Shown here: in pieces, positions 4,939-30,459 of the stretch
Numbering within the stretch: position 1 is the stretch's first letter
Layout: every line of letters starts with the position of its first letter
DNA from: Geobacter sp. FeAm09
GTDB taxonomy: Bacteria; Desulfobacterota; Desulfuromonadia; Geobacterales; Pseudopelobacteraceae
Assembly: GCF_008330225.1 (NCBI RefSeq)
Contig: NZ_CP042466.1
Location: forward strand, 2,784,001-2,848,000
Direction: 5' to 3'
DNA: 64,000 nucleotides
Translations under genes and position numbers: made by a program
Notes under the pieces: generated by a model
The model's input: the letters and a program-made list of their open reading frames with translations, nothing else
What the model was told of the DNA's origin: nothing
Database searches by the model: none

Positions 4939-4973
4939 GGCTCGCCGTCCATTCCGGGAATGGTGCGGATGGC

Positions 4974-5009
4974 AAGACCTCCGGGGTGGAACGCCCCGGA
5001 GGTCTTTTT
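4974..5009 (+). terminator. Rho-independent terminator after the MMPL transporter
   Basis: AAGACCTCCGGGG and CCCCGGAGGTCTT form a 13-bp stem with a short loop followed by T residues, 35 bp after the MMPL stop codon. The arms are A-rich and T-rich outside, so it could act in both directions. Confidence 0.85.
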
Positions 5010-5602
5010 GTCTGGTGGTGCGTGATGCCCGCTCCTGTTGCCGGGCCTTCTTCACATGCCCCCTGAATGGGCTGCGGCCGGGATTCGATACGGCGTGCGA
5101 CATGCTTCACCGCAACGTTTCATTGTGGCCATGATGGTCATGGCCATAAATGGAGATGCAAGCGGGATCGTGAGAGGACATGGTATAACGTTCCGTATCG
5201 TGTGCGGTCGGTTCGCCGCAGTAATTTCGAGAGGTTAAAGTTCCAGGCAGAGGGGTTTTCCAACTTGAGGCCTTTTGGGATGAAAACCAGATGAAAACTA
5301 GGGACATCCATGATAAGTTTTGTCACATGGTCAATGCCCTATGGTTCTTTTTCGGTATAAATTGCCGGCAGGACATGGTGGGTTCCTTTCTCGGCAGTGA
5401 GTTGGCCGTGCTGCTCACATGACTGGAAAATCCCATCATGTCCTGCCCTTACCTCTTGCGGTGGATTTACGAATAGAACCCAGTACCCGGGGTTGCAGAG
5501 AAGGGACTCCCCCCAAAGTAAGCTCCGAAAATATCGCAACAGTTGACATCCTGTCCGCACCGTTTAGTATTTGATGCACAATAACTTCCAAGGAAACCGA
5601 AT
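5010..5602. other. Intergenic region without a convincing gene
   Basis: About 590 bp between the MMPL terminator and the CheB-CheR gene. No reading frame here has a ribosome site plus coding-like composition. The stretch is less GC-rich than its neighbours and holds one perfect inverted repeat (5126-5146). The segment before 5603 probably contains the promoter of the chemosensory genes, but no clear -35/-10 or -24/-12 box stands out. Confidence 0.5.
5126..5146. repeat. Perfect 9-3-9 inverted repeat, possible operator
   Basis: TGGCCATGA-TGG-TCATGGCCA is a perfect dyad with a 3-bp centre in a non-coding stretch. No T run follows, so a terminator is unlikely. A protein-binding site is possible; no regulator is known. 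Confidence 0.4.
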
Positions 5603-8249
5603 ATGAAGAATCTCGGAAAGAAGAGCGGCACCCGGAAGACGGCCCCTGTCGAACCCGCTGCGGTACCCGGACAGGAACAGAAAAGCGACGAGGCAAACTT
5701 CCCGATCGTCGCCATCGGCGCGTCGGCCGGGGGTTGGAGGCGCTGACCCAGTTCCTGGAGCCGGTAGCGCCGAACTGCGGCCTTGCCTTCGTCGTCATCC
5801 AGCACCTCGACCCCGACCACGTCGGGATGCTTCCCGAACTGCTCCAGCGGGCCACCAAGCTGGAAGTGGTGCTGGTCAAGGACCGGATGCGGGTCAGGCC
5901 GGGCTGCGTCTACGTCATCCCCCCCAACCGGGAGATGTCGATCCTCCACGGCGTCCTCCACCTGTTCGAAGCGGCCGAGCCCCGGGGGCTGCGCCTCCCG
6001 ATCGACCACTTCTTCCGCTCCCTGGCCGACGACTGCAAGGAACGGAGCATCGGCGTCATCCTCTCCGGCATGGGGTCGGACGGCACCCTCGGTCTCAGGG
6101 CGATCAAGGAGAAGGGGGGCCTCGCCCTGGTGCAGGACCCGGAATCGGCCAAATTCAGCGGTATGCCGAACTCGGCCATCAGCTTTGGCCTGGCGGATAT
6201 CGTGGCCCGCGCGGAGGTCCTCGCCGCGAGAATCACCGAAATCCTCCAGCACGCCCCGCTCGGTGCGGTCCCGAAGGTGAAGCTCGAAGAGAAGGATCTC
6301 TCCGCCCTCGACAAGATCGTCATCCTCCTGCGGTCCGAGACCGGCAACGATTTCTCCCTCTACAAGAAGAGCACCCTCTACCGCCGGATCGAACGGCGCA
6401 TGGGGATTCACCAGATCGACACCATCGCCTCCTATGTCCGCTTCCTCCAGGCGAACCGCCAGGAACTGGACCTCCTCTTCAAGGAATTCCTGATCGGCGT
6501 GACCAGCTTCTTCCGGGACCCGGTCGCCTGGGACCACCTGAAGAGCGACGTCATCCCGGGGCTTCTGACCGAACAGCCGTCCGGGGGGTGTTCAGGGCCT
6601 GGTCGGCGGGGTGCTCCACCGGGGAAGAGGCCTATTCCCTGGCCATCGTGTTCAAGGAGACGCTGGAGGAGCTCAAGCCCCAGTCCCACTACACCCTGCA
6701 GATCTTCGCCACCGACCTCGACCGGGACGCCATCGACAAGGCCCGGCTCGGGATGTTCCTCCCGAACATCGCCGGCGACGTCTCGCCGGAGCGGCTCAAC
6801 CGGTTTTTCACCAAGGAGGATGAGGGGTACCGGATCAACAAGGAGATCCGGGAAATGGTCACCTTCGCCACCCAGAACGTCATCACCGACCCCCCCTTCA
6901 CCAAGCTCGACTTCCTCGTCTGCCGCAACCTCCTGATCTACCTGGACGTGGAGATGCAGAAGAAGCTCCTGCCGCTCTTCCACTACGCCCTCAACCCCGG
7001 CGGCGTGCTGTTCCTCGGCAGCGCCGAGACGCTCGGCGTCAGCTCGGACATGTTCTCCCCCCTAAACGCCAAGATGCGGCTCTTCCGGCGCGACTACAGC
7101 ATCAACCGGCCGAACGTGGTCTCGTTCCCCTCAACCGTGCTTCCCCCCGCCCCGGCGGGCTTCAAGGAACCGCCCGCCGTGAAACCGGACATCAATCTGC
7201 AGATCCTGGCCGACCGGGTCCTGCTGCAGAAGTATTCCCCCCCGCCGTGCTGGCCACGCACGAGGGGGACATCATCTACCTCAGCGCCCGGACCGGGAAA
7301 TACCTGGAGCCGCCGGTCGGGAAGGCGAATCTCAACCTCTTCGCCATGGCCCGGGAAGGGCTTCGCGTCGAGCTGTTCGGCGCCTTCCAGAAGGCCCAGC
7401 ACCAGAGCGATCCGCTGGTCGTCCAGAACATCCGGGTCGGTCCCCACGGCGGCAGCCAGACCATCGACCTGGTCGTTCAGAAGCTGGACGAGCCGGAGCT
7501 GCGGGGGATGGTAATGGTCGTTTTCCGGGATGTCCATACCTGCCCGGACATCCCCCGGAAGCGCTCCGGCAAGGCCAAGGATGCCGTGAGCACCCGGATC
7601 ACCGAACTGGAGTCGGAACTCCAGCAGGCCCAGGAAAGCCTGCGGGTCAACCGGGAGGAACTCCAGACCACCCGGGAGGAGATGCAGACCTCCCAGGAGG
7701 AGCTGAAAGCGTCCAACGAGGAGCTCCAGTCGATCAACGAGGAGCTCCAGTCGACCAACGAGGAGCTGACCACCTCCAAGGAAGAGATGCAGTCGATGAA
7801 CGAGGAACTCCAGACGGTCAACTCCGAACAGCAGGCCAAGGTGGACGAGCTCTCCCACTTGAACGACGACATGCGAAACTTCCTGAACAGCACCGAGGTC
7901 GCCACCATCTTCCTCGACAGCCGGCTGAACATCCGCCGCTTCGCCAACGCCTCCAGCAAGCTGTTCAAACTGATCCCGAGCGACGTGGGGCGCCCCCTTT
8001 CGGACATCGTCAACGAACTCTCCTATCCGGAGTTGACCGCCGACGCCGAAAAGGTGCTCCGGACCCTGGTCTTTTCCGAGAAACAGGTTTCCACCACCGA
8101 CGGCCGCTGGTTCTCGGCCCGGATTCTGCCGTACCGGACCGTGGGTGACGTGATCGACGGGGTCGACCGACATCACCTCCTTCAAGCAGTTGGAAGATGA
8201 GCTGCGGACGCAGATCCGGCACTACGAGGAGGCGCGGAACAATGAATGA
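5603..8249 (+). pseudogene. CheB-CheR-coiled-coil-PAS fusion, broken by four frameshifts in this sequence
   Basis: Reads as a CheB methylesterase fused to a CheR methyltransferase and a PAS sensor. The CheB part (5603 to about 6260) keeps its Ser (GASAGG), His (QHLDP) and Asp (SGMGSDGTLG). The CheR part runs about 6290-7100 with the SAM-site motif SAGCSTGEEAYSL. A glutamate-rich coiled coil of repeated NEELQS units (about 7610-7860) and a PAS domain (about 7870-8190) follow. The frame changes at the G run 5729-5733, the G run 6583-6588, the C run 7237-7243 (each repaired by adding one base) and near 8167, where about 11 bp appear to be missing before TDITSFKQLE. The final stop 8247-8249 overlaps the ATG of the next gene. 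Catalytic residues are intact, so sequencing error is a serious alternative to real decay. Confidence 0.8.
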
Positions 8250-18676: not shown

Positions 18677-19021
18677 TCAAGGGACCTTGGCTTCGAACTT
18701 GTGGCAGTCGTTGCAATACAACCGTGATTCTTTATGAATGCCATGGCACAGCGTACACCTCACCATGCCCTCATGGGAGGCGTGCATGTTCACCGAGCGC
18801 TGGTTCCCCTGATCGAGATACGTTTTGACCGAACCGGGAGCCTCGGTATGGCAGGCGATGCACGCGGCACTTTTGGCGGCTCTTTGCGGAGCGGCCTCTT
18901 CATGGCAATCACTGCATTTGATCCCGTTGTCCAGATGCTTTTTATTTATGGTGACGGCCCCTGAAATACAGGGAACGGATAAGGCAAGCGTTACCAACAC
19001 GAAAAAACGAACGTAGTGCAT
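18677..19021 (-). CDS. Small periplasmic tetraheme c-type cytochrome
   Basis: A 114-residue exported cytochrome with a signal peptide (about 1-22) and four CxxCH heme sites: 36-40 (CSDCH), 54-58 (CIACH), 89-93 (CTLCH) and 103-107 (CNDCH). Length, heme spacing and extra histidines (H80, H83, H96) resemble the tetraheme domain that is fused to the flavin domain in Shewanella flavocytochrome c3 (FccA). Here it is a separate gene 69 bp downstream of a secreted flavoprotein, so it is the likely electron donor to that enzyme. The ATG at 19021 follows AGGGGAG. No terminator was seen after it. Confidence 0.88.
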   Translation of the reverse strand: MHYVRFFVLVTLALSVPCISGAVTINKKHLDNGIKCSDCHEEAAPQRAAKSAACIACHTEAPGSVKTYLDQGNQRSVNMHASHEGMVRCTLCHGIHKESRLYCNDCHKFEAKVP

Positions 19022-19090
19022 GTCTCTCCCCTGAACTGTGGGGAGTTGGGCACAGCGCGCGGTCGTGCCCAACTCCACGGTTTTTAGTGA

Positions 19091-20590
19091 TTATTCAACT
19101 GATTTGATGTACCCGGCCGCATGCTCTGCGGCCATGCGGCCCGTGTTGACGGCAAACCCGATGGTGCTCCCCGCCATCAGCAGGTCGTAGCTGTCGCCGT
19201 ACATGCCGCCGGCGTCATTCCCGACGGCGTAAAGCCCGGGGATAACCGGCCCTTTGGTACTGACCACCTGCATATCCTTGGTGACCTTGGCCCCTCCCAG
19301 GGTTCCGAGGGCCGCGGGGTATGCCTTCACCGCATAGAAAGGTCCCTTCTTCACCGGCTGGAGATACTTGGGGTCCTTGGCGAATTCGCCGTCATGCTTT
19401 TTGTCGGCAAAGGTGTTATAGCGCTCGATGGTCGCTTTCAGGGTCGCCGCATCCGCCCCTATCTTCTTGGCAAGGCCTTCGACGGTGTCGGCCGAAAAGG
19501 CGACGCCCTTCCTGATGCCGCCCTCAAGCTCCTTGTCCAGGTTGGTCAGCTTGGTCTTGACGGGCACCATGACGCCGACCCCCACATCAAGCCCCTCTTC
19601 CATCATGTACCGCTTGGTCTCGGCATCGTACACGGCAAACATGGTGCCGCCGGCGCGTTCCAGGGCATTGCCGGCAAAAGGCCACTGGAAGATAACCATT
19701 TCGTCGCAGAAACGCTCCCCCTTCCTGTCCACCCAGAGGTAGGGCTGGCGGACGGTCGCCACGAGCTGGGAGGTGGTCGGCTCTCCCGGCAGGCCCGGCC
19801 GGTACGACTGCACGACTTCCATCCCTTCCGTGTCCGCCCCGGCGGCGATCATCATCCGGATGCCGTCGCCGGTCTTGCCCACATTGCCCACCGGCACCTG
19901 GTCGGGGAACCGGGTGTACTTCTTCATCATCTCCTTGTTGTTGAGGAACCCGCCCGTACCGACGATAACTGCCTTGGCGCTGATGACGATCTTCTCGCCC
20001 GTGGCGTCCTCGGAAACGACACCGGCAACCCGGCCGTCTTTCATGATCAGTTCCTTACCGGCGGTTTCGCTCAGCACCTTGACGTTCATCTGGGGGAATT
20101 TCGCCTTGAGCGTCTCCAGCATCGATTTGCCGCGTCCCTTGAAGATGTGCCAGGACTGCAGTCCGCCGGGGTAGTTGGCGGTCAGCTCCGTGAATTCGAC
20201 CCCCTGCGCCTGCAGCCACTCGACGGTGGTCGGCGATTTGTCCACAAAGGCCCTGACGAGCTTGGCATTGGCCCGCCAATGGCTGTAGTTCATGATCATC
20301 TTGAAAGCGTCATCCCTGTTGAGGACAATGTTCCTCTCCTGCTGGATCTTGCTGTCCGCGGCAAAAATCCCTTCCGAAAACTTTCCGGTGCCGCCGGTTG
20401 ACGGCTGTTTTTCGAGAACGATGACGCTTTTGGCGCCGGCCTGGGCCACGGCATACGCCGCGGTGATTCCCGAAGCGCCCCCACCCACGACCACAACATC
20501 GGCCTCCAGCCTTTTTTCGGCAAATGCCGCCGGTGCCCACGCGACAAGCGCCGCCAGCAAAGTACATACTACGGCAAACGTTCTGTTCAT
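19091..20590 (-). CDS. Exported flavoprotein of the fumarate/urocanate reductase family, substrate unknown
   Basis: A 499-residue FAD protein with a Sec signal peptide (about 1-24, AFA-E cleavage). It has the Rossmann motif VVGGGASG (about 34-41) with Glu60 for the adenosine ribose, a GTGGF motif and a C-terminal IPGLYAVGNDAGG FAD segment. The fold is that of flavocytochrome c fumarate reductases, but the active site differs. The HPT motif reads YRP, the T-R-D arginine that donates the proton is missing from DEMVIFQWPFAGN, the second His is absent from AALGTLGGAKV, and the C-terminal NRLGG arginine is replaced by GDSYDLL. It is therefore probably not a fumarate reductase. A tetraheme cytochrome gene follows. 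The ATG at 20590 has GGAGGG 5 bp upstream, and transcription probably starts near 20895 from a sigma-54 promoter. Confidence 0.82.
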   Translation of the reverse strand: MNRTFAVVCTLLAALVAWAPAAFAEKRLEADVVVVGGGASGITAAYAVAQAGAKSVIVLEKQPSTGGTGKFSEGIFAADSKIQQERNIVLNRDDAFKMIMNYSHWRANAKLVRAFVDKSPTTVEWLQAQGVEFTELTANYPGGLQSWHIFKGRGKSMLETLKAKFPQMNVKVLSETAGKELIMKDGRVAGVVSEDATGEKIVISAKAVIVGTGGFLNNKEMMKKYTRFPDQVPVGNVGKTGDGIRMMIAAGADTEGMEVVQSYRPGLPGEPTTSQLVATVRQPYLWVDRKGERFCDEMVIFQWPFAGNALERAGGTMFAVYDAETKRYMMEEGLDVGVGVMVPVKTKLTNLDKELEGGIRKGVAFSADTVEGLAKKIGADAATLKATIERYNTFADKKHDGEFAKDPKYLQPVKKGPFYAVKAYPAALGTLGGAKVTKDMQVVSTKGPVIPGLYAVGNDAGGMYGDSYDLLMAGSTIGFAVNTGRMAAEHAAGYIKSVE

Positions 20591-20895
20591 TTTTCCCTCC
20601 ACGACAATTTTTCCATCATTTTCATTGGTTACCCTCCTCCGGGCCAGCCCCTTTCCGTGACCTTCGCGGCAGACTTCCGCGAAGCCGGGACAGGCGGCTT
20701 GGCAGCCCGGCCAAACCGGTGCGGTTCGCACCAGCGCAAAACGGCATCGACGTCATGCCAGCCGTTCTGCCGAATTTCCGGCCTCCTTTCCTTGATGGTG
20801 TCCGTACCAACAGCCTCCGTGCCGAATCCGTTTTTTACCCTGGCCTTACGGGGAACGACAACACCACCCCGCGCCACTCCGGATTCCGGACGGCA
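20591..20895 (-). other. Long untranslated leader of the flavoprotein operon
   Basis: If the -24/-12 promoter at 20907-20921 is used, the mRNA has about 300 nt before the flavoprotein start. No small gene with a ribosome site is evident. A short hairpin GGTGCG-GTT-CGCACC lies in it near 20718-20732. No known riboswitch class is recognised. Confidence 0.35.
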
Positions 20896-20906
20896 ACGGA
20901 GCATGC

Positions 20907-20921
20907 GCAAGGAGCGTGCCG
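20907..20921 (-). promoter_or_regulatory. Sigma-54 (-24/-12) promoter of the flavoprotein-tetraheme operon
   Basis: The minus strand reads GGCACG-CTCC-TTGC, which has the strict GG-N10-GC spacing and matches the TGGCACG-N4-TTGC consensus except at the first base. It lies between the gene and a perfect dyad at 20960-20999, and next to a divergent sigma-54 activator gene. Confidence 0.7.
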
Positions 20922-20959
20922 TCGAATAAAACGATGCAAAAACAGTTTGTTGCATTCAA

Positions 20960-20999
20960 GCGACAATTAAACTGCCAATTACGACAATTTAATTGTCGC
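20960..20999. promoter_or_regulatory. Perfect 12-bp dyad, likely upstream activator site
   Basis: GCGACAATTAAA (20960-20971) and TTTAATTGTCGC (20988-20999) are exact inverted copies separated by 16 bp that hold a further ACGACAA-like half. Another CGACAATT occurs at 21057-21064. The dyad centre lies about 65-70 bp upstream of the -24/-12 promoter, the normal place for a sigma-54 activator. The adjacent Fis-type regulator is the obvious candidate ligand. Confidence 0.65.
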
Positions 21000-21077
21000 A
21001 TTCCGCAATAGTAGCTAAATAGTGCCGCATGTGGTAATTTGAGGCGCGAACAGTGCCGACAATTGGGGGAAACGATT

Positions 21078-22673
21078 ATGGTCAGAGACGAAAACATATT
21101 CTTCCGCAGGGCGACCACCCACATCTGCAGCAGCCTCGACTGCGCGACAGCGCTGCACCGCTGCCTGCTGCACCTGAGGGAATTCATGCCGATCGACATG
21201 ATGATCCTCTGGGTGTTTGACGAGAGCGCGCAGGGGTTGCGGCGAATCGCCGTGGCAACCCCGGAAGAGGGGCTCCACTCCGACATGGTCATGCTTCTTC
21301 CCCCCGCAACCAGGGAAAAGCTCCTGAAGATGGACATCCCCCACATGATCATCGAGCGTTCGGGATTTGCCCCGGTGGTCATGCGGCTGGTCAACCAGCC
21401 CGACAGCGACCCCATGGCGCGCAGCCTGAAACAGTACTTCGAGCCGAACGATTATTCGTCGATGGTGCTGTATCTGGAGATTGAAGGGAAACGGCTGGGA
21501 ACCCTCTTTGTTCGGGCGGAGGGGAAGGACCGCTACACGGAATACCATACCCGGCTGCTTGCCTTGCTGCACGAGCCATTCTCCCTGTCGGTGGCTCATA
21601 CGCTGCTCTTTGAAGAAAACAGAAAGGCCAGGAACCGGGAAAAGGATGGCGAAGGCTATTTTTTGCAAAAGATCGGCATGCCGGGGAACAAGGTAATCGG
21701 CGCGGATTGCGGTTTGAAAGGGGTCATGGAGATGGTGTCCCAGGTCGGGCTTTTGAACAGCCCCGTGCTGCTGCGCGGAGAGACCGGCGTGGGCAAGGAT
21801 ATGATCGCCAACGTCATCCACCACTGTTCACCCTTCCGGTGCGGCCCGTTCATCAAGGTGAATTGCGGGGCAATCCCGGAAACCCTTATCGACAGCGAAC
21901 TGTTCGGCCATGAAAAGGGGTCGTTCACCGGTGCGACCATCCAGAAGCGCGGTTATTTTGAACGGGCGAACCACGGGACCATCTTCCTCGATGAGATCGG
22001 CGAACTCCCGGCCCATGCGCAGGTACGATTGTTGCGCGTCCTGCAGTTCAAGGAGGTACAGCGGGTCGGGGGGGCGGAACCGGTGCCGCTGAACATCAGG
22101 GTGATCGCCGCGACCCACCGGAACCTCGAAGAAATGGTCGAGGCGGGGCTCTTCCGTGAGGACCTCTGGTTCAGGCTCAATGTTTTCCCCATATTCATCC
22201 CGCCGCTGCGCCACAGAAAGGAAGACATCCCGGAACTGGTCCACGACCTGGTGATCAAGAAATCGCGGGAACTGAAACTGCTACGGGTACCGGCCCTTGC
22301 GCCGGGCACCATCGGCCGGCTCACGGCCTATCACTGGCCGGGCAACGTCCGCGAACTGGAAAACATCATCGAGCGGGCCCTGATCCTGTGCAAGGGGGAC
22401 ACCATCACCGCGGACGCCTTCCTCTTCCGCGACGAACGGGCGATCGCCCCGGCACAGCAGGAAACCGACGCCATCCCTCCATTGGACGAGGTGGTCACAG
22501 CCCACATCAAAAGGGCACTGACGAAAGCCAACGGCAGGGTACACGGCCCTGACGGGGCCGCCCGGCTCCTGGGGATGAATGCGAGCACCCTGAGGAACAA
22601 GATGGACAAGCTGGGGATAACATACGGCAGGGCGCTGCGGGCGAAGGGCACGACCGGTTATCAGCCCGCCTGA
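21078..22673 (+). CDS. Sigma-54-dependent activator with GAF domain
   Basis: A 531-residue enhancer-binding protein of the FhlA/NorR type. The N-terminal GAF-like sensor spans about 15-170. The AAA+ domain has Walker A GETGVGKD (about 234-241), the sigma-54 contact loop as GSFTGA (about 280, Ala replaced by Ser), Walker B GTIFLDEIGEL and arginine-finger segment F-R-E-D-L-W-F-R-L. A Fis-type helix-turn-helix lies at about 490-530 (GAARLLGMNASTLRNKMDKLGI). The ATG at 21078 has GGGGGA 7 bp upstream. The gene is divergent from the flavoprotein operon that carries a -24/-12 promoter and dyad, so it very likely controls it. The GAF ligand is unknown; it could be the substrate of the reductase. Confidence 0.9.
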   Translation: MVRDENIFFRRATTHICSSLDCATALHRCLLHLREFMPIDMMILWVFDESAQGLRRIAVATPEEGLHSDMVMLLPPATREKLLKMDIPHMIIERSGFAPVVMRLVNQPDSDPMARSLKQYFEPNDYSSMVLYLEIEGKRLGTLFVRAEGKDRYTEYHTRLLALLHEPFSLSVAHTLLFEENRKARNREKDGEGYFLQKIGMPGNKVIGADCGLKGVMEMVSQVGLLNSPVLLRGETGVGKDMIANVIHHCSPFRCGPFIKVNCGAIPETLIDSELFGHEKGSFTGATIQKRGYFERANHGTIFLDEIGELPAHAQVRLLRVLQFKEVQRVGGAEPVPLNIRVIAATHRNLEEMVEAGLFREDLWFRLNVFPIFIPPLRHRKEDIPELVHDLVIKKSRELKLLRVPALAPGTIGRLTAYHWPGNVRELENIIERALILCKGDTITADAFLFRDERAIAPAQQETDAIPPLDEVVTAHIKRALTKANGRVHGPDGAARLLGMNASTLRNKMDKLGITYGRALRAKGTTGYQPA

Positions 22674-22713
22674 GTTTCATTGCCATCGCTGCCCGCCGGA
22701 AGCCCATGGTTCC

Positions 22714-23907
22714 CTAGTACCGGCATATGACGCGAGGCTCCTTCTCCCCACCGCCGGAGCGGGATGACAGGAGGAAGAGCAGGGCCGCCCCGAGCCCCAG
22801 AACCCCGGCGGCGTAGAACACCGCCGTCAGCCCCAGGGCGCTCTGCAATCCCGCACCCAACAGCGGGCCAGAGACGAAACCCAGGTTCAGCACCGCGTTG
22901 CAGGTGCCCACCGTCGCACCCATGCCGTGGCGGCTCCCCTCCTCCACCAGCAGCGCCGTGCTCGCAGGCTGGGACAACACGCTGAACAGGCCGATACCCA
23001 CCCCCAGCGCCAGGATCTGGCTAAAACCCGCCGCCACCGGGATCAGGAAGTAGAGCAGCGAGACCGCCGTGCCCCCGGCAACCACCAGGGACTTGCGCGG
23101 CGCCCGGTCCGAGAGCATGCCCATGGGGCGGAGCAAGAGGGTCATCACCAGGGTGGAGGAGGCCATGACCAGCCCGGCCCGGGTGCCGCTCAGCCCCAGC
23201 CGGGCCGTGAGCATGATGGGGAGAAAGGCCCCCAACAGCGAGATGCCGCAGGCCCGGCCGAAGACGAAGGCCAAAAGCCCCCGCAGGGAGCTGTGGCGGG
23301 TGGCGCCCAGGAGGTCACCGAGGCGTTCGCTGTGGCTGGCTTGGCGTGGCGGGGGCTTATGGCCGGGGATGCAGATGAGGGCCACGGCCAGGGCGACGAC
23401 GCACAGGAGGGCCAGGGTGGCAAAGATCCCCTGAAAGCCCCACAGGTCCTTGAGCATCCCCCCCACCACCGGCCCCAGACTCAGGGCGCCGTAGAAGGAG
23501 ATGTCGAAGGTGCCCATGACCGTAGCCCGTTTGTGGTCCGGGGTGGCTTCGCCCACCAGGGAGAGCACCACGGGGCGGAACATGGCGCAGCCGATGCCCT
23601 GGAGCAGGCGCAGGAGGGTGATGAGGGGGAGACTGACGGTGAAGAGGTAGCAGAGGGAGACGAAGAGGTAGAGGCCGAGGCTGGCGGCGGCGACCTTCTT
23701 GCGGCCGATGCGGTCGGCCCAGGCGCCCATGAAGGGGCTGAGGACGATCTTGGAGAGGGAGTAGAGAACCAGCGGCAGTCCCAGGAGCGCTCCCCTTGCG
23801 CCCAGGCTGAAGACGTAGAGCGAGAAGAAGGCGTCGGCGATGCCGAAGCCCAAGGTGATGGCGAAGTTGATCAGGAACAGCCCCCGGAACAGGGTGCGGG
23901 TCTCCAT
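22714..23907 (-). CDS. Major facilitator superfamily transporter
   Basis: A 397-residue, 12-helix inner-membrane transporter with motif A as GAWADRIGRKKV between helices 2 and 3. The general features are those of the drug:H+ antiporter-like or small-solute MFS branch, and the substrate is unknown. It begins 10 bp after the hemerythrin gene and is the last of five minus-strand genes (flavoprotein, channel-like protein, heptaheme cytochrome, hemerythrin, MFS), converging on the sigma-54 activator with 40 bp between. Its place suggests uptake or export of the substrate or product of the flavoprotein. Confidence 0.88.
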   Translation of the reverse strand: METRTLFRGLFLINFAITLGFGIADAFFSLYVFSLGARGALLGLPLVLYSLSKIVLSPFMGAWADRIGRKKVAAASLGLYLFVSLCYLFTVSLPLITLLRLLQGIGCAMFRPVVLSLVGEATPDHKRATVMGTFDISFYGALSLGPVVGGMLKDLWGFQGIFATLALLCVVALAVALICIPGHKPPPRQASHSERLGDLLGATRHSSLRGLLAFVFGRACGISLLGAFLPIMLTARLGLSGTRAGLVMASSTLVMTLLLRPMGMLSDRAPRKSLVVAGGTAVSLLYFLIPVAAGFSQILALGVGIGLFSVLSQPASTALLVEEGSRHGMGATVGTCNAVLNLGFVSGPLLGAGLQSALGLTAVFYAAGVLGLGAALLFLLSSRSGGGEKEPRVICRY

Positions 23908-23917
23908 GGTTTCTCCC

Positions 23918-24346
23918 CTACCCAGCCAGGAATTCCTCGAAGGCCCGGTCCTGGCAATGGATGTGTTCCAGCCAGAGGAGGCGGATGTCCGCCAACTCGT
24001 CGGGCAGCACCTCCAGCCCCCTGCCGAAGCGGGGGGCCAGTTCGGCGGTGTTCACCCAGAGGAGCTGGTGATGGAGGCGGTGCCGGGTGGCCTGGGGGAA
24101 GCCCACCAGTTCCATGTAGCGGTTCTCGGAACCGATGTGCTCCATCATGACCTCCAGGAGCCGCTCCAGTTCCCGGGTGAGGTCCGCGCCCGGTTTGCGG
24201 CGCAGCGCTTCGATCATGGCGTCCAGGTGGCCGATGATGCTCCGGTAGCGGCTGTCGCAGGCGAGCTTTCGCTCGGTCAGTTGGTGCGGGTCGATCGACA
24301 TATCGTATCCCGGAGTGGTGCAGTGTCCGTAGGTCTGCAGTTCCAT
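23918..24346 (-). CDS. Bacteriohemerythrin-like protein
   Basis: A 142-residue four-helix protein with the set of di-iron ligands expected for hemerythrin: His in IIGHLD, HxxxE in EHIGSENRYME, HxxxH in RHRLHHQ and HxxxxD in EHIHCQDRAFEEF. Such proteins bind O2 reversibly, or sense or scavenge it. No signal peptide is seen, so it is probably cytosolic. AAGGA precedes the ATG at 24346. It sits between the heptaheme cytochrome (40 bp) and the MFS gene (10 bp), so it may protect the anaerobic electron-transfer system from oxygen. Confidence 0.85.
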   Translation of the reverse strand: MELQTYGHCTTPGYDMSIDPHQLTERKLACDSRYRSIIGHLDAMIEALRRKPGADLTRELERLLEVMMEHIGSENRYMELVGFPQATRHRLHHQLLWVNTAELAPRFGRGLEVLPDELADIRLLWLEHIHCQDRAFEEFLAG

Positions 24347-24386
24347 GTTTCGTGTCCTTTGAGGAAAGAAAGCCCGTGGACCGGGG

Positions 24387-25067
24387 TCACTTCTTGCCCG
24401 GCCAAGCGAAGCCGAACCCGTGGCAGGTCGAGCAGAAGTCCTTGAACGGGTCGTGGGACTGGTGGCAGTTGGTGCATTTCAGGGTCGGGTAGTGGGACTT
24501 GTGCGGATTGCGCGGGAACCTGGTTTTTGCCGTCCTTGCCGTCAAGGTATCGTACGTGCCGTGACAGGCGATGCACTTCTCGCTGTAGCTCTCGTCGTCG
24601 TCTTCGTTATAGGCCCGGTGGCAGGCCTGGCAGGAAACCCCGTTGTTCCGGTGAACATGGGCAAGTTTGTCCGAATCCAGCCAGGTGGCCATCTTCCTGG
24701 CCAGTTCGGGCAGGTCGCCGCGTGCGACCGTTGTCGTACCGGCACAGGAGAGCCGCATGTTCCCGGCGGCGTCGCCGGGGTGGCATCCCAGGCAGGTCTC
24801 GGCCGTTACGGTTCCTTTGGCAAGATGGGCCGCGTGGATTTTGCCGGACAGGCGGGGGGCCTTGCCACCGGCGGCATGGCAGGTGGCGCAGCCGGAAAAA
24901 TCAGCGGCCTTCTGGTGCGTGGCCGGCAGTATTTCGGCGGTTTTGGCGTGACATGCCGCGCACTGGAAGACAGGCGCAGCCGCCTGCGCCTGGGCGATGC
25001 CGCCCCCCCCACAGCAGGTTGTCCCCCAAAGTGCCGCCAGGATGGTCATTACTTGAAAGTTTTTCAT
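24387..25067 (-). CDS. Exported heptaheme c-type cytochrome
   Basis: A 226-residue protein with an N-terminal signal segment (about 1-29) and seven CxxCH sites at about 36, 60, 92, 146, 165, 198 and 212. The last four, with the bracketing histidines (HVHRNNG, NPHKSHYP), look like the flavocytochrome c3 tetraheme domain; the first three form an added N-terminal unit. The C-C-G run near residue 18 could be read as a lipobox, but the surrounding sequence is a poor match. AGGAG precedes the ATG at 25067. It lies in one operon with a secreted flavoprotein, for which it probably supplies electrons. Confidence 0.88.
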   Translation of the reverse strand: MKNFQVMTILAALWGTTCCGGGGIAQAQAAAPVFQCAACHAKTAEILPATHQKAADFSGCATCHAAGGKAPRLSGKIHAAHLAKGTVTAETCLGCHPGDAAGNMRLSCAGTTTVARGDLPELARKMATWLDSDKLAHVHRNNGVSCQACHRAYNEDDDESYSEKCIACHGTYDTLTARTAKTRFPRNPHKSHYPTLKCTNCHQSHDPFKDFCSTCHGFGFAWPGKK

Positions 25068-25202
25068 ACTACGCTCCTGAGAATAAGTTCATCGGTATCT
25101 TACATGGTGCCACGGCCCGGGGGTGACGTTGCAAACGGCACCTTACGGCGCCATGAGTGCGGCATGGCCTGCCCGGGCACGCCATGCCGCATGCGGCGCG
25201 CC

Positions 25203-26147
25203 TTAAAACGCCCAGATCACCTTGACCCAGTACTTGTCGCCTTCCGGCCTGTTCTCCACCAGCATCTCCTTCTGGTATTTGGCCTCGATGCTCATATTCC
25301 TGTAGTCGTACTTGACCGTGGGGCCGACGGCGAAGACCTGCCCCTTGTTGCCGTCGTTGGCGGCAGCGCCGGCGCCATGGTCATCGGACACCTGCCGGTA
25401 GAAATAGCCGGTGGCGCCCATGGTCCAGGGGCCGGCATGGTAGGCGGCCGCGTAGTCGAAGTGGAATTCTTGGCCGGAGGTATACTTGGTGGCCGTATTC
25501 TCGGTATTGAAGTCGTACATGAACTTGCCGGACAGCTCCACACCGTTATCGCTCAGCAGGGTGCCGGTGAAGATCGGCTGGATGGTCCAGTAGTTTCTGC
25601 CGATATTGACAAGCCGGTTTTTGTCGTACTGCCCGGTAGGTGCGGTAATATCGAGCCCGGTGGCGGCGTGCCAGTTTTTGGCGTGCCATGCCAGCACGAA
25701 CGGCGAAAAGGAGATGTCGCCCAGCCCGCTCTTGGTACTGCTCGAACTGCCGGCCGGCGTGCCGAGCGTGCCGCTGGCATTGACCAGAGGAGCGATCACG
25801 TACACGCCGTAGTTGGCGCCCAGCAGTTGATGCGTGGTCATGTAGACGAAACGGGACACGTTGGCGGTGACGTTGACGTGGAAGTCAAGGGGCTGTTTGT
25901 TGCCGTTTTTGTCGTTCAGCCGGTCGGCGGAGTAGTGGGTGAGGTAGTTGAGATAGTAGAGGCCCGGTGGCGGCAAGGCCCCCGCCATGACCCCTTCGGC
26001 ACCGTTCGGGTAGGTGCCGCCGCCCCCCTCGGTTGCGCCGGCGGGCAGGGCCGACAGGGCCGACAGGGCCGACAGGGCCGACAGGGCGGCACAGGCACAC
26101 AGGGCGAACGCCGCGATACTCCGTTTCGGCATGGTAAAGCGCTTCAT
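25203..26147 (-). CDS. Outer-membrane channel-like protein of the MetA/SphA family
   Basis: A 314-residue exported protein predicted as an outer-membrane beta-barrel of the phenol-MetA-degradation/SphA-like family, whose members are thought to admit hydrophobic or aromatic compounds. It has a signal peptide with four ALS repeats (about 22-33) and amphipathic beta-strands to a C-terminal aromatic residue (VKVIWAF), the usual barrel signature. The ATG at 26147 has GGGGGAG 4 bp upstream. It stands 112 bp after one flavoprotein gene and before the heptaheme cytochrome, which hints that the reductase substrate is a rather hydrophobic, perhaps aromatic, acid. That is inference only. Confidence 0.78.
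   Translation of the reverse strand: MKRFTMPKRSIAAFALCACAALSALSALSALSALPAGATEGGGGTYPNGAEGVMAGALPPPGLYYLNYLTHYSADRLNDKNGNKQPLDFHVNVTANVSRFVYMTTHQLLGANYGVYVIAPLVNASGTLGTPAGSSSSTKSGLGDISFSPFVLAWHAKNWHAATGLDITAPTGQYDKNRLVNIGRNYWTIQPIFTGTLLSDNGVELSGKFMYDFNTENTATKYTSGQEFHFDYAAAYHAGPWTMGATGYFYRQVSDDHGAGAAANDGNKGQVFAVGPTVKYDYRNMSIEAKYQKEMLVENRPEGDKYWVKVIWAF
26051..26086. repeat. Four perfect 9-bp tandem repeats in a signal-peptide coding region
   Basis: CCGACAGGG is repeated four times without mismatch, with degenerate copies on both sides. On the minus strand it encodes Ala-Leu-Ser units in the hydrophobic core of the channel-like protein's signal peptide. Copy-number change keeps the frame but alters the core length by three residues per unit. 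Confidence 0.85.
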
Positions 26148-26259
26148 TGAACTCCCCCTTCATCAAAGTGATGTGAAATCGGCAGTGCATCGCCTGCCAT
26201 GCAGGCTGGTGCGCACAAAGGCGGCATGGATCAGCCGATGCCATGCCGCCTCGACCGCA

Positions 26260-27783
26260 CTAGCGTTTGCCGTAGGCGGCGGCCTGCTCGCCGGCAATCT
26301 TGCCGGATTGGGCCGCCCACTGGAACATCATGCCCGACGTCCAGGTGGCGTAGGTATCGCCGTAGAGCCCGCCGACATCGGCGCCGGCGGCATACAGCCC
26401 GGGGATCGCCTTGTCGTTCTTGTCGGTAACCTCCATCTTCAGGTCCGTTTTTACGCCGCCGATGGAGACGAAGTTGTAGGGGAACACCTTGAGGGCGTAC
26501 AATTTGCCGGTCTTCACCGGGACGATGGTATCGGCCTTCCGGTAGAACTTCTCGTCGCGGCCGGTCTCTTTTGCGTGGTTGTACTGATCGACATTTTCTT
26601 TCAAGCGGGCCGGCTCCACACCCATCTTCTGGGCAAGCTCTTCGATGCTGTCGCCGACGACGATGCTGCTGCTCTTCTGGGCCACGGCAGTGGCGATCTC
26701 GGCGCGCAGGTCCGTCAGCTTCGTGCCGATGGGCACGAGCACGCCCAAGCCGTTGTCGATCCCATGCTCTTCCATGTAGCGTACGGTTTCGTCGTCCCAG
26801 ATGCTCCAGACAAAACCGTCGCGCTGGCGCTCGATGGCGTTGCCGGCAAAGGTGAAGGCCCATACGGCGTTTTCGTCCACAACGCGGTCGCCGTATTTGT
26901 TGACCCACAAGAGCGGCTGCCAGGTCATGGCGTACAACGGCCCCAGCGGTTTGATCCCTTCGCCGTGGGTCCCGGGATGCAGCATCAGGCCCCAGCCCTC
27001 GCTGTCCGCACCGGCGGCCAGCGCCATGTTGATGCCGTCGCCGGTCTTGTTGATGGGCACGGTGGGGAACACCTTGTCGGCGTCGAAGCGGGTCCACTTC
27101 CTGACCATTTCCTTGCTGTTGTTGAAGCCGCCGGTGGCGATCACGACCGCCTTGGCGTTGATGGTGTAATGATCGCCCTTGGCATTGACGGCCTTTACGC
27201 CGGCGACGGCGCCACCGTTATAGATCAGTTCCTTGGCCGGGGTTTCGAAGTAGATCTTGACGCCCAACTCCTTGGCCTTGGCCTGCATGGCCTGGACCAG
27301 GGCGGCGCCGTGGTGGGCGGTTCCCCAGTCCTTGATCAGGTGCCAGGTCGGCGCCTCGGTCGGCGACATGGTCACCACTTCAAACCCGACCCCCTGTTTT
27401 TCCAGCCACTCGATGATGCTGGTGGAATTGGCGACGGTCTGCGCCAGCAGGCCGGCATTGTTCCGGTAGTGATGGTAGTCCATGGCGTGCCAGTACGCCT
27501 CTTCCTTGGTAAGCCCGATCGCTTTCCGGCGCTGCTGGTCGGTTTTTACCGCAAACAGCCCCTCGGCAAAGTTGGAGCTGCCGCCGGCAAACGGCATCTT
27601 TTCGAGAACGATTACTTTTGCCCCCGCGTAGGCGGCGCTGACGGCGGCGGACAACCCGGCCGAACCCGCGCCGACCACAACCACATCGGTACTGATGCTC
27701 TTATCCGCGGCATTGCCGATGCCGGAAAACAGCACCACCAGCGAAAAACAGACCAACGACAGCCTTGAACTGCACCTCTTCAT
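26260..27783 (-). CDS. Second exported flavoprotein of the fumarate/urocanate reductase family
   Basis: A 507-residue FAD protein with a signal peptide (about 1-26, GNAA-D). It has the Rossmann motif VVGAGSAG (about 36-43) with Glu61, a TGGF motif and the C-terminal IPGLYAAGADVGG FAD segment. It is clearly related to the flavoprotein at 19091-20590 but not a recent copy. The first catalytic His motif is kept in part (LHPGT). The proton-donor arginine is absent (ENAVWAFTFAGN), the second His is absent (NFVSIGGVK), and the C-terminal substrate arginine is replaced by GLYGDTYATWTSG. It is probably a respiratory reductase of an unsaturated compound other than fumarate. It is first of a five-gene operon. 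The ATG at 27783 has AAGGAGG 7 bp upstream. Confidence 0.82.
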   Translation of the reverse strand: MKRCSSRLSLVCFSLVVLFSGIGNAADKSISTDVVVVGAGSAGLSAAVSAAYAGAKVIVLEKMPFAGGSSNFAEGLFAVKTDQQRRKAIGLTKEEAYWHAMDYHHYRNNAGLLAQTVANSTSIIEWLEKQGVGFEVVTMSPTEAPTWHLIKDWGTAHHGAALVQAMQAKAKELGVKIYFETPAKELIYNGGAVAGVKAVNAKGDHYTINAKAVVIATGGFNNSKEMVRKWTRFDADKVFPTVPINKTGDGINMALAAGADSEGWGLMLHPGTHGEGIKPLGPLYAMTWQPLLWVNKYGDRVVDENAVWAFTFAGNAIERQRDGFVWSIWDDETVRYMEEHGIDNGLGVLVPIGTKLTDLRAEIATAVAQKSSSIVVGDSIEELAQKMGVEPARLKENVDQYNHAKETGRDEKFYRKADTIVPVKTGKLYALKVFPYNFVSIGGVKTDLKMEVTDKNDKAIPGLYAAGADVGGLYGDTYATWTSGMMFQWAAQSGKIAGEQAAAYGKR

Positions 27784-28259
27784 TTCCTTGCCTCCTTGCA
27801 CGTTTGTTGAGTAACTCTGGTACAAACACGTCGACACGCCCTGCATTGAACCGCGACAGATCACCTCCTTCGCTTGAAGCCGCACCGTTAGCGCATGGTC
27901 ACAGTATCTCCCGATTACCGCAACAATGTAATTGGGCATATTATTGTTTTTTAAAGGAAAATATCCCTAGAACCCGTGGGACGTTTTTTCTTAGGGGGAC
28001 GAGGAAATCCAACCGTATTTTGCCGGGGTTTTTTACCTGGAGAGGGCTAGGGAAAACTACCAATGGCACGGCTTCGATACCGTCGCCACGGCCTGTTGAC
28101 AGGCCTGGCTGCACCAGGGGCCGGATGAGCCGGGAACCGGCGTGGGTGGGAGCATGGGCCGGTTATCCCGGCCCAATTGCCCTGAATATGTTGATTAGGG
28201 ATTACAAAAAAATGCGATCGCTCTTATACTAGGGCGTAGTTACGGGTAGTCCATTTCTC
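27784..28259. other. Divergent regulatory region between flavoprotein operon and PAS kinase
   Basis: About 475 bp, AT-richer than the genes, with no gene that I can support. It must hold the minus-strand promoter of the flavoprotein operon (AT-rich part about 27920-27990) and the plus-strand promoter of the kinase. A sigma-54-like TGGCACGGC at 28063 lacks the -12 GC and is not called. Confidence 0.6.
28202..28230 (+). promoter_or_regulatory. Sigma-70-type promoter of the PAS kinase gene
   Basis: TTACAA (28202-28207), a 17-bp spacer containing the palindrome GCGATCGC, and TATACT (28225-28230), about 30 bp before the ATG at 28260. Confidence 0.55.
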
Positions 28260-29801
28260 ATGGTCCAGGGGAGACGAACCGCTGGGTATGGTGACGACAT
28301 GAATTCATCGGAGGCACGGCGTGCGCCCGAAGCGGCGGAAACGCACACCACGGCAGGCGGGCTTGAAGAGGAACTGCTCCGGCTTCGGACGGCGTACGAC
28401 AATCTGAAGAAGAGCGAGGAGCGCTACCGGCTCATGTTTGAGAACGTGCCGCTGGGCTACCTTTCCATGGACCAGAATGCGCGTTTGATAGATGCCAACA
28501 ATGCGCTGCTGGATTTTCTCGGCTATTCCCGGGACGAATTCATCGGCAAGAGGTTTGCCGACCTGCTCGTGGAAGGGGTGGATTACCACCTGAACGTCAC
28601 CTTCCCCGCCTTCAAGAAGAGCGGCATCTCCCAGAACATCGTCTGGAAGGTCCGCAAGAAGGACGGCAGCGTCGCCATCATACAGATGAACGGCAGGGTC
28701 CGGTATGACGAAAACGGCAATTTCATACAGACCCACTGCATGATGCAGGACATCACGGAACAGAAAAAGGCGGAAAAGGCCCTCAGGAAATCGGAACAGG
28801 AAAAGGCGCTCATACTCGGCGCCATGTCGGACCGGGTCATCTATCATGACGCCGACATGAGAATCCTGTGGGCCAACCGGGTGGCGGCCGACTCTTCGGG
28901 CCTGCCCCTGAGCGAGATGGAAGGGAAGTACTGCTATGCGGTATGGCACCAGCGGACGGAGCCGTGCGAGGGGTGCCCGGTTGCGGCCGCCTTTCAGACG
29001 CGCCAGGTATGCACGGGCGAGATGCACGTCAACAACAAGGTGATGCTCATCGGTGGCTACCCGGTTCTGGACGATAACGGCACGTTCCTGGGCGTGGTGC
29101 AGGTTTCCAAGGATACGACGGAGCGCAGGCTCCTGGAAAAGCAGATTCTGGACATGAGCAGCAGGGAGCAGCAGCGGATCGGCCACGATCTCCACGACGG
29201 CCTGGGACAGCACCTGACCGGAATTTCGTTCCTCGCCTCCGCCCTGCACTGCCAGCTCTCCGGCGCATCGCCGGAGGAATCGGACGACGCGAAACAGATC
29301 GCGGAACACGCCAATGCGGCGTTGAGCCTGATGCGCAGCCTGGTCAAGGGGCTCTGCCCGGTGAACAAGGATGCCAAGGGGCTGATGCTGTCATTGGACT
29401 CGTTGGCGGCGAACGTGGAAAACATGTATGGCATCGCCTGCCGTTTCCGTTGCGACGAGCCGGTTTTGATCCACAACAACCTGATCGCCACGCACCTCTA
29501 CTACATCACGAACGAAGCGGTCAACAACGCCGTCAAGCATAGCAAAGGCAGTTGCATCGCCATATCCCTTTCGTGCGATGGGGATATGATCAGGCTTGCG
29601 GTGGCCGACAACGGCCAGGGCGGTTTTCTCGAAACCTATAATGGACAAAAGGGTATCGGCCTGCGCACGATGGAGTATCGCTGCAAAATGATCGGCGCCG
29701 CGCTGAGACTGCAGAGTACCGCTTCAGAAGGGACGACGGTGACATGCTCTCTGCCGGTCAGCGAGACCATGGCGGCGTTTGCGGGTGAATACGGTGAGTG
29801 A
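28260..29801 (+). CDS. NarL-family sensor kinase with two PAS domains
   Basis: Cytosolic-looking kinase of 513 residues (500 if the ATG at 28299 is used; neither start has a strong ribosome site). PAS 1 spans about 55-175 and PAS 2 about 185-290. PAS 2 carries a cysteine group (K-Y-C-Y-A-V-W-H, then E-P-C-E-G-C-P-V and Q-V-C-T-G) that could bind a metal or sense redox state. The HisKA_3-type dimerization domain holds Q-R-I-G-H-D-L-H-D-G-L-G-Q-H, with the phospho-His near residue 305, and the HATPase_c domain ends near 505. There is no membrane helix. The stop overlaps the start region of the response regulator, so the pair is coupled. Divergent placement from the flavoprotein operon suggests that the pair controls it. 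Confidence 0.88.
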   Translation: MVQGRRTAGYGDDMNSSEARRAPEAAETHTTAGGLEEELLRLRTAYDNLKKSEERYRLMFENVPLGYLSMDQNARLIDANNALLDFLGYSRDEFIGKRFADLLVEGVDYHLNVTFPAFKKSGISQNIVWKVRKKDGSVAIIQMNGRVRYDENGNFIQTHCMMQDITEQKKAEKALRKSEQEKALILGAMSDRVIYHDADMRILWANRVAADSSGLPLSEMEGKYCYAVWHQRTEPCEGCPVAAAFQTRQVCTGEMHVNNKVMLIGGYPVLDDNGTFLGVVQVSKDTTERRLLEKQILDMSSREQQRIGHDLHDGLGQHLTGISFLASALHCQLSGASPEESDDAKQIAEHANAALSLMRSLVKGLCPVNKDAKGLMLSLDSLAANVENMYGIACRFRCDEPVLIHNNLIATHLYYITNEAVNNAVKHSKGSCIAISLSCDGDMIRLAVADNGQGGFLETYNGQKGIGLRTMEYRCKMIGAALRLQSTASEGTTVTCSLPVSETMAAFAGEYGE

Positions 29802-30459
29802 TGCCAAAAACAAATCCAGGATTATGGTGGTCGATGACCATGCCGTCGTGCGCGAGGGGCTATCGAAGCTGATCAACCATGAAAACGACATGGTGGTCTG
29901 TTGCGACGCCGAGGACGGCCCTTCCGCGCTCAAGGCGATTGCCGCGCACAAACCGGACCTGGCCATTGTGGATATTTCCCTCGCGGCGTCCAGTGGTCTC
30001 GATGTGACCAAGAATATCAAGATTCACTACCCGGAGATTCCCGTGCTGGTTCTCTCCATGCACGAGGAGGCGCTTTTCGCCGAACGGGCGCTGCGGGTGG
30101 GGGCCTCCGGGTACGTCATGAAGGTCGAGCCGCCCGCGACACTGATACACGCCATCAGGCGCGTCCTGAGCGGCAAGACGTTTCTCAGCGAAAGGATGAC
30201 CGAGTACTTCCTGAGCCAGGTGGTACACCCCTCCACCACGAAAAAGGAATCCCCCATCCACGGCCTGACGGACCGGGAGTTCGAAGTATTCCTGATGATC
30301 GGCAAGGGGTTGGCCACGCGGCAGATCGCCGAACGCATCAATCTGAGCGTCAAGACCATCGACGCCTATCGGGAGAACCTTAAGAAGAAGCTGAATCTGA
30401 AAAACGCCGCGGAATTGCTGCAGTATGCCATAGAATGGTCACGCAACGACGATGTGTGA
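29794..30459 (+). CDS. NarL/FixJ-type response regulator
   Basis: About 221 residues. An N-terminal receiver has the acidic pair in VVDDHAVVREGL, phospho-Asp in L-A-I-V-D-I-S-L and the Lys in YVMKVEPP. A C-terminal LuxR-type helix-turn-helix follows (LTDREFEVFLMIGKGLATRQ and N-L-S-V-K-T-I-D-A-Y). The GTG at 29794 is preferred; it overlaps the kinase stop by 8 bp, and a TTG at 29779 is an alternative. Its 3' end overlaps the convergent cysteine-cluster gene by 21 bp. Probable target: the divergent flavoprotein operon. Confidence 0.88.
   Translation: MSDAKNKSRIMVVDDHAVVREGLSKLINHENDMVVCCDAEDGPSALKAIAAHKPDLAIVDISLAASSGLDVTKNIKIHYPEIPVLVLSMHEEALFAERALRVGASGYVMKVEPPATLIHAIRRVLSGKTFLSERMTEYFLSQVVHPSTTKKESPIHGLTDREFEVFLMIGKGLATRQIAERINLSVKTIDAYRENLKKKLNLKNAAELLQYAIEWSRNDDV

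Follow-up and report, generated by a model that had tools for sequence, protein, structure and literature searches.

Why does one stretch of a Geobacter chromosome encode two related exported flavoproteins, each beside a multiheme cytochrome, and what would they reduce? We address this for positions 18677-30459 of a 64,000-nucleotide stretch from Geobacter sp. FeAm09 (the window; 2784001-2848000 of the single-contig genome G000, 4099068 bases), where flvA and flvB encode two flavin adenine dinucleotide (FAD) proteins, cytA4 and cytB7 their putative electron partners, and further genes an outer-membrane barrel, a hemerythrin-like protein (hhe), a major facilitator superfamily (MFS) transporter and regulators (Table 1). 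A sequence-only reading had seen here a self-contained module. Judged by gene order and by distribution among related genomes, the locus is two adjacent, separately regulated reductase cassettes rather than one unit. With about even confidence, we explain them as cassettes for the periplasmic, heme-coupled reduction of C=C bonds in a neutral or phenolic compound, the MFS protein acting as FAD exporter; in this explanation we infer the reaction direction, the substrate class, the electron source and the role of the MFS protein. Genomes compared are labelled G### and loci, meaning DNA stretches from those genomes, L###.

Two cassettes rather than one unit

Pfam and NCBIfam profiles together with CXXCH counts recovered all gene types that had been named for this locus; exported FAD enzymes, dedicated multiheme partners, an outer-membrane channel, a transporter and two separate regulators were borne out. 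The genes form two blocks, each opposite its own regulator: flvA-cytA4 faces the sigma-54 activator, and flvB-barrel-cytB7-hhe-MFS faces the PAS kinase and the NarL-type regulator, with the MFS and sigma-54 genes lying tail to tail, their ends 40 bases apart. Signal peptide classes were assigned by reading rather than with a signal predictor, and the two flavoproteins were thereby given Sec-type (general secretory) signal peptides (MNRTF...AFA and MKRCS...GNA), their signal peptide regions holding no twin-arginine translocation (Tat) motif. Both blocks show the arrangement of the Mrd/Mcc methacrylate redox system of Geobacter sulfurreducens AM-1, a periplasmic flavoprotein and a separate 4-7-heme cytochrome in one operon (PMC4427408; this and the other papers cited were available in part, and statements resting on them extend to those parts), here as flvA-cytA4 and flvB-barrel-cytB7. 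Residues 133-224 of CytB7 align with the flavocytochrome c3 heme domain.

To follow each cassette through the order, 141 genomes were surveyed for matches at E<=1e-100. Matches to FlvB occur in three of them (G000, G123 and G090) and matches to FlvA in 19, namely G000, 17 genomes with an FlvA-type protein at 48-51% identity, and G123, there only through its FlvB-type protein. The G123 locus (L013, from a Desulfuromonadales metagenome-assembled genome) holds kinase, regulator, FlvB, barrel, heptaheme cytochrome and MFS together without FlvA; its kinase, likewise placed before flvB, is 54% identical to the window PAS kinase, and the partner regulator 62%. Conversely, an FlvA-type cassette without FlvB is found in G117, G114, G115, G138, G046 and G028. 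Besides G000, both flavoprotein types are present only in G090, on separate contigs that each end in hhe, and the two may still be neighbours there. Because each type occurs without the other in other genomes, we read the locus as two cassettes; the self-contained module is not supported by this synteny survey.

That the reductase pair is instead one co-evolved functional unit, catalysing two steps of one pathway, is improbable. In its favour, another pair of divergent reductases lies elsewhere in G000 (L041), each accompanied by a tetraheme cytochrome and an XylR_N-bearing regulator of its own; downstream follows a single barrel with 91% identity to the window barrel (88.5% at the nucleotide level across 25203-26044); open reading frames (ORFs) with four CXXCH motifs adjoin both L041 reductases and also the L043 reductase. 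However, the partners in L041 are unlike the window pair, each cassette type is found alone in other genomes, and the regulators are separate. The sequence-only reading had held such a pairing to be undescribed as one unit. A flavoprotein with a separate cytochrome was already described for Mrd/Mcc, and 147 separate flavoprotein-cytochrome gene clusters have been reported in 108 genomes (PMC8238504).

Active-site residues and substrate class

The sequence-only reading had proposed respiration of one or two unsaturated carboxylic acids by analogy to FccA and UrdA, in which Arg402, His504 and Arg544 (FccA numbering) hold the carboxylate (PMC7921117). We aligned 81 flavoproteins, leaving out the two pieces of a broken gene at L104 and checking the numbering on a further alignment. 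Of the rows, 32 keep all three residues and 45 combine Tyr at 544 with absence of the other two; three have Thr/Arg/Ser, and one is gapped. The three positions read F, L, Y in FlvA and W, F, Y in FlvB, whereas the rows that keep the Arg, His, Arg set (Arg-type) include flavocytochromes (L103, L114) and the G000 paralogs L056 and L077. The analogy stands for the FAD_binding_2 fold and for the nearest solved relatives but is weakened for unsaturated acids, because R402, H504 and R544 are replaced in both proteins.

The residues found instead resemble those of VprA, an enzyme of L. plantarum that reduces vinylphenols (PMC10295242). An L. plantarum plasmid protein scoring 783.8 bits against the VprA family NF053717 (cut-off 600) carries D, F, Y at the three positions and a T-W-H motif common to FlvB, with S-W-H in FlvA; it thus shares with both window proteins the Tyr at R544, the T/S-W-H motif and the lack of Arg402 and His504. 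It differs from them in having no cytochrome gene in its 6.35 kb stretch, a LysR regulator and, by reading, no signal peptide. Regulators of related cassettes point in a similar direction: XylR_N, described as an activator domain of aromatic catabolism, is present in 8 of 10 sigma-54 regulators tested (absent from those of the window and of L077), and seven of the eight are, by position, divergent from Tyr-type flavoproteins (L041 twice, L043, L046, L048, L097 and L055), those of L046, L048 and L097 from FlvA-type cassettes. Since the carboxylate residues are replaced, the residues are VprA-like and XylR_N accompanies the relatives' cassettes, the likeliest substrate of FlvA and FlvB would be a neutral or phenolic, probably aromatic, alkene rather than an acid.

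Several observations weigh against this assignment. Although NF053717 is the best NCBIfam match of both proteins, FlvA (390.7 bits) and FlvB (354 bits) stay under its cut-off, as they do for TIGR01813 (218.4 and 213.9 bits; cut-off 285.45). The columns used as a VprA test, Tyr at R544 plus W-H, were chosen by the author of the analysis; this Tyr is also found in the Tat proteins L055, L078, L079, L130, L131, L139, L140, L144 and L145 and in signal-less ones, the W is missing in an Agrobacterium VprA-like protein (L161, 568 bits) and in L044, and the H occurs in flavocytochromes too. The VprA-type protein of L. plantarum lacks the signal peptide of the window proteins. XylR_N is missing from the sigma-54 regulator of the window itself, and the regulator bearing this domain in L047 is divergent from a Tat flavoprotein of the Arg type.

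Two other substrate readings have to be weighed. Respiration of unsaturated acids appears distinctly unlikely: FccA, IfcA and UrdA are the nearest solved relatives and share the fold, the heme partners are separate as in Mrd/Mcc, and the XylR_N regulator beside the Arg-type L047 flavoprotein makes an aromatic acid thinkable, yet Arg, His and Arg are replaced in both window proteins while the flavocytochromes and, in the same genome, L056 and L077 keep them. Unlikely as well is the reverse direction, in which a neutral substrate would be dehydrogenated in the periplasm and electrons would pass through the cytochromes to an extracellular electron transfer chain. This order lives by extracellular electron transfer, and the relatives found by sequence and fold include 3-ketosteroid dehydrogenases and a cyclohexanone dehydrogenase (for KstD, TMt reaches 0.76). 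In the FlvB model (pLDDT 83.8), FccA entries come first by E-value (TMt about 0.6), but by TM-score UrdA (6t86, 0.85) precedes ketosteroid dehydrogenases (0.70-0.76); the best curated family, NF053717, is a reductase, and the active-site residues are common to the protein above its cut-off, which argues for reduction.

Related cassettes in the same genome

Eight places in G000 match the VprA model at E<=1e-60, in addition to further Tat-type paralogs. Six MFS-bearing places hold eight Sec flavoproteins (the window and L041 together with L076, two each; L042, L043, L044 and L056), and a multiheme cytochrome ORF adjoins every one of the eight. The outer-membrane channels vary between these cassettes, being PF13557, OprD, Alginate_exp-like or an exported protein without Pfam match, which from its length and signal alone is a putative porin. 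At L041 (15803-19215) and L076 (3279-4900), genes for HGD-D, a BadF/BcrA-type ATPase, a CdhC-like and a CbiA/ParA-type protein lie between the reductase pair and the hhe-MFS tail. One Tat flavoprotein with a tetraheme cytochrome is present twice, at L078 and L079 (414 kb and 772 kb of G000), with 100% protein identity (rounded). A candidate broken or selenocysteine gene at G000 1229198 was ruled out, both TGA codons preceding the called start. In a search for plasmid carriage, FlvB gave two distant matches and the MFS none; a defence link of hhe and the barrel was not found at E<=0.001.

An MFS transporter linked to Sec-exported flavoproteins

The MFS transporter (E<=1e-60) is found in 24 of the 141 genomes, all of them among the 41 that contain TIGR01813 proteins (E<=1e-40). 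When coordinates were compared by hand, 42 of its 43 copies in the order lay within 10 kb of a flavoprotein, the remaining copy (G029) being on a contig without a listed flavoprotein. We read 83 flavoprotein places chosen for holding a FlvA, FlvB, MFS or TIGR01813 match (L101-L104 and L132 were picked via MFS, the flavoproteins of L101, L102 and L103 being listed by the flavoprotein search as well). An MFS gene lies nearby for 38 of 56 Sec flavoproteins (30 of 36 heme-free, 8 of 20 four-heme) and for none of 13 Tat, 13 signal-less and one unclear protein. In these counts "Sec" is the class that is left once Tat, four-heme and 13 hand-listed signal-less proteins are set aside; the single broken gene of L104 enters twice; and both L041 genes were manually assigned the L076 MFS at distances of 9 and 13 kb, one of them over the 12 kb limit. 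A gene for RibBA, confirmed in five of six neighbour proteins tested, lies near 17 heme-free Sec flavoproteins and one Tat flavoprotein, but near no four-heme Sec, signal-less or unclear one. At the level of genomes the MFS is present in 24 of 28 with a Sec flavoprotein against 0 of 113 without (Fisher, 2.7e-23), with numbers entered by hand, kinship ignored, the Sec class of G032, G040 and G041 inferred from their clade, and 100 genomes without TIGR01813 match at 1e-40 counted as having none.

Sec passengers take up FAD outside, whereas Tat passengers can fold inside. At somewhat less than even confidence, we suggest that the MFS protein may export FAD to charge the Sec-exported apo-flavoproteins. 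The relatives of the MFS are exporters. MFS-bearing flavoproteins occupy three places in the tree, one of which is that of L056, a protein of the Sec type whose clade is otherwise Tat. In a phylum sample of 395 genomes the MFS occurs in three; one of these, G268, belongs to another family and has an MFS of 37-38% identity separated by 111 nt from a Sec flavoprotein that shares 53% identity with FlvA. In G046, ribD, ribE, ribBA and ribH follow a few genes downstream of the MFS, and RibBA is at similar distance in ten related genomes, which may be one event.

Several observations speak against FAD export. Among solved structures, the closest to the MFS are exporters of drugs and amines rather than of FAD. 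No MFS lies near the main-clade FccA-like four-heme Sec flavocytochromes (12 of 12), nor near the Sec flavoproteins L127, L128, L133 and L047_9240, nor near L045 and L050, which lie at contig ends; in G056, which encodes a Sec flavocytochrome, no MFS is matched at E<=1e-60. RibBA is also found near one Tat flavoprotein (L130), the counts are not independent because the genomes are related, and no FMN riboswitch reached Rfam gathering scores in the 12 sources, of more than 100 loci, whose Rfam matches were four tRNAs, one c-di-GMP-I riboswitch and one antisense RNA. It is a serious if still doubtful possibility that the protein is a multidrug-type pump clearing a toxic substrate or product such as phenols, the Sec link then reflecting clade membership. 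Its nearest families and folds are indeed drug/H+ antiporters such as NorA, and VMAT, to which the predicted model is closest. A pump sits less easily with the nearly identical MFS copies that one and the same genome has next to Tyr-type reductases and next to an Arg-type one (L056), with the same family beside the fused flavocytochromes L101, L102 and L103 in other genomes, and with the three tree places of MFS-bearing flavoproteins, none of them Tat (though two further Sec groups have no MFS).

At L104 (G125), RibBA, an hhe-like gene and an MFS accompany a flavoprotein that is split in two. At L048 (2324-3576, G046) the full riboflavin synthase gene is preceded by two short, partial tandem copies of its start.

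A homogenised hhe-MFS tail and plausible exchange of cassettes

DNA tracts of the window MFS match L042, L043, L044 and L056 at 96.6-98.3% and L076 at 86%. Tracts restricted to MFS span 22787 to 23908 or 23917, and the L042 tract includes hhe (22749-24380, 98.3% of nucleotides). Over the whole gene, the four other intact G000 copies are 99, 95, 94 and 84% identical to the window copy, leaving out the broken L043 copy, whereas the reductases beside these MFS copies are just 31-58% identical to FlvA or FlvB (best local match). Two places of G117 are 99.9% identical over 2838 nt. Cassettes A and P of this genome have flavoproteins 40% identical, but hhe and MFS are 100% identical; cassette A compared between G117 and G115 has flavoproteins 96% and MFS 86% identical. 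Because the MFS is identical within G117 despite 40% flavoproteins, yet only 86% identical between species whose flavoproteins share 96%, the pattern of the hhe-MFS tail is, as judged from these identities, concerted evolution after the species parted. Against a general process, the two MFS copies of G115 are 82% alike, and homogenisation is thus not universal. The broken L043 copy (4761-5963; G000 2868823-2869961) extends over two frames beside an intact flavoprotein, and next to the cassette P MFS of L095 (14980-18511, G117) lie proteins with 19 and 5 CXXCH motifs.

Different cassettes also occupy the same chromosomal place. L046 (G117) and L096 (G115) have a 5.7 kb left flank in common that ends 4 nt past tRNA-Ala(cgc), and a common right flank from L046 17786 onward; between them lies cassette A in L046 and cassette P in L096, while G117 has P elsewhere (L095) and G115 has A elsewhere (L097). 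L056 of G000 has the same right flank and a third cassette, with a left match to L096 of just 284 nt and no tRNA in the stretch examined. No second copy (>=12 nt) of the tRNA-Ala 3' end, as an integrase-type direct repeat, was found in L046 or L096. Plausibly, cassettes were exchanged between chromosomal places by recombination through the near-identical tails.

Regulatory DNA, the hemerythrin-like protein and gene layout

The regulator divergent from flvA had been called a sigma-54 GAF activator; the sigma-54 part holds (Table 1), but the protein has neither GAF (Pfam, E<=0.01) nor XylR_N, and its first 219 residues are without Pfam domain. A strict sigma-54 promoter pattern matched nowhere in the window. 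A looser scan gave one site upstream of flvA, and also sites in 7 of 15 other upstream stretches. The near-palindrome between flvA and the sigma-54 gene is possibly an activator site. An element made of tandem hairpins and a U-rich tail was found at seven G000 places (<=3 mismatches; reversed control 0), at six of them upstream of hhe or MFS, and the three copies that were folded did so far better than shuffles (z -8.8, -6.0, -4.6); the window holds just the 3' part of the element. Terminator-like copies are located at G000 1020564, 2490007, 2496479, 2711954, 2739101, 2870278 and 4063639, at L076 4967 and at L096 7404.

The protein that had been named a hemerythrin is hemerythrin-like, but it has no Pfam match, scores below the NCBIfam cut-off and has the ligand string YHEHHHD with Tyr for the first ligand His; it departs from the five His and two carboxylates that we take to be the bacteriohemerythrin ligand set. 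Within this family (window, L042, L046 and others), 31 of 39 aligned rows, some overlapping between loci, have Tyr at the first ligand position (DSRYR), seven have His and one Gln, and in some the second ligand is changed.

Table 1. Genes and candidate regulatory sites of the two cassettes, in window coordinates; the starts of cytA4, flvA and flvB were shifted inward by reading.
Feature	Position	Strand	Evidence
cytA4, exported tetraheme cytochrome c, putative FlvA electron partner	18677..19021	-	4 CXXCH; PF14537 E 1.3e-15
flvA, Sec-exported FAD_binding_2 flavoprotein, VprA-like active site	19091..20590	-	PF00890 7.4e-63
Sigma-54 (-24/-12)-like site upstream of flvA	20906..20921	-	CGGCACGCTCCTTGCG, 10/12 consensus positions
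Near-palindrome between flvA and sigma-54 gene	20982..20998	.	CGACAATTAAATTGTCG
Sigma-54-dependent activator, divergent from flvA	21039..22673	+	PF00158 1.4e-64, HTH_8
DHA1-type MFS transporter	22714..23907	-	PF07690 1.1e-51
hhe, hemerythrin-like protein	23918..24346	-	NF033749 47.4 bits, cut-off 84
cytB7, exported heptaheme cytochrome c, putative FlvB partner	24387..25067	-	7 CXXCH; PF14537 6.6e-20
Outer-membrane barrel, MetA-pathway type	25203..26147	-	PF13557 3.2e-74
flvB, Sec-exported FAD_binding_2 flavoprotein, VprA-like active site	26260..27783	-	PF00890 1.2e-56
PAS sensor histidine kinase, divergent from flvB	28260..29801	+	PAS_4, PAS_9, HisKA_3, HATPase_c
NarL/FixJ-type response regulator	29779..30459	+	Response_reg, GerE

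Proposed mechanism and relation to known systems

In the mechanism that we propose, FlvA and FlvB would be exported through Sec and then fold and be charged with FAD in the periplasm, the FAD being exported by the MFS protein, and therefore one transporter sequence could serve reductases with quite different pockets. The quinol pool would reduce CytA4 and CytB7, each passing electrons to its own flavoprotein; the substrate would enter through the barrel, and FlvA and FlvB would hydrogenate the C=C bond of a neutral or phenolic, probably aromatic, compound. Near-identical tails would permit cassette swaps between chromosomal places via recombination. A still wider picture seems to us rather doubtful when taken as a whole: exchangeable terminal-reductase cassettes throughout the genome with a common homogenised "service tail" (hemerythrin-like protein, MFS, sometimes RibBA), the MFS as a new non-MATE FAD exporter, a tRNA-flanked place for swapping reductases of different substrate class, and FlvA and FlvB as respiratory reductases of phenolic alkenes.

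Among the closest known systems is Mrd/Mcc, in which a GTP cyclohydrolase gene 505 nt downstream of mcc can be counted as a further likeness to the cassettes, besides the separate multiheme cytochrome. Mrd, however, has a Tat signal whereas FlvA and FlvB are of the Sec type by reading, and the parts of the source available name no barrel, hhe or MFS for Mrd/Mcc (PMC4427408). While the flavoprotein with a separate multiheme partner is thus known already, a VprA-like active site, a homogenised hhe-MFS tail and a Sec-linked MFS would set the window cassettes apart from this kind. FccA flavocytochrome c3 and UrdA share the FAD_binding_2 fold and a respiratory role, but FccA is fed by its own heme domain whereas the heme protein is separate in the window, and the carboxylate-binding residues are replaced (PMC7921117). 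For the proposed role of the MFS the analogue would be Bfe, the FAD exporter of Shewanella oneidensis, which likewise supplies FAD to the periplasm but belongs to the MATE rather than the MFS transporters (PMC5655446). In the literature covered we came across neither this MFS, nor an exchange of cassettes of this sort, nor VprA-like enzymes coupled to hemes, with no query made by name for cassette exchange or gene conversion and subscription papers largely outside the scope.

FAD enzymes that leave through Sec depend on FAD on the outer side of the inner membrane. The FAD exporters that the available parts of PMC5655446 name are MATE proteins; the Sec-linked MFS is a further candidate. Tails kept alike next to divergent reductases would account for an exchange of respiratory reductases between chromosomal places in Geobacterales. 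If true, heme-coupled VprA-like enzymes would add neutral aromatic alkenes, for example from lignin, to the electron acceptors of respiration.

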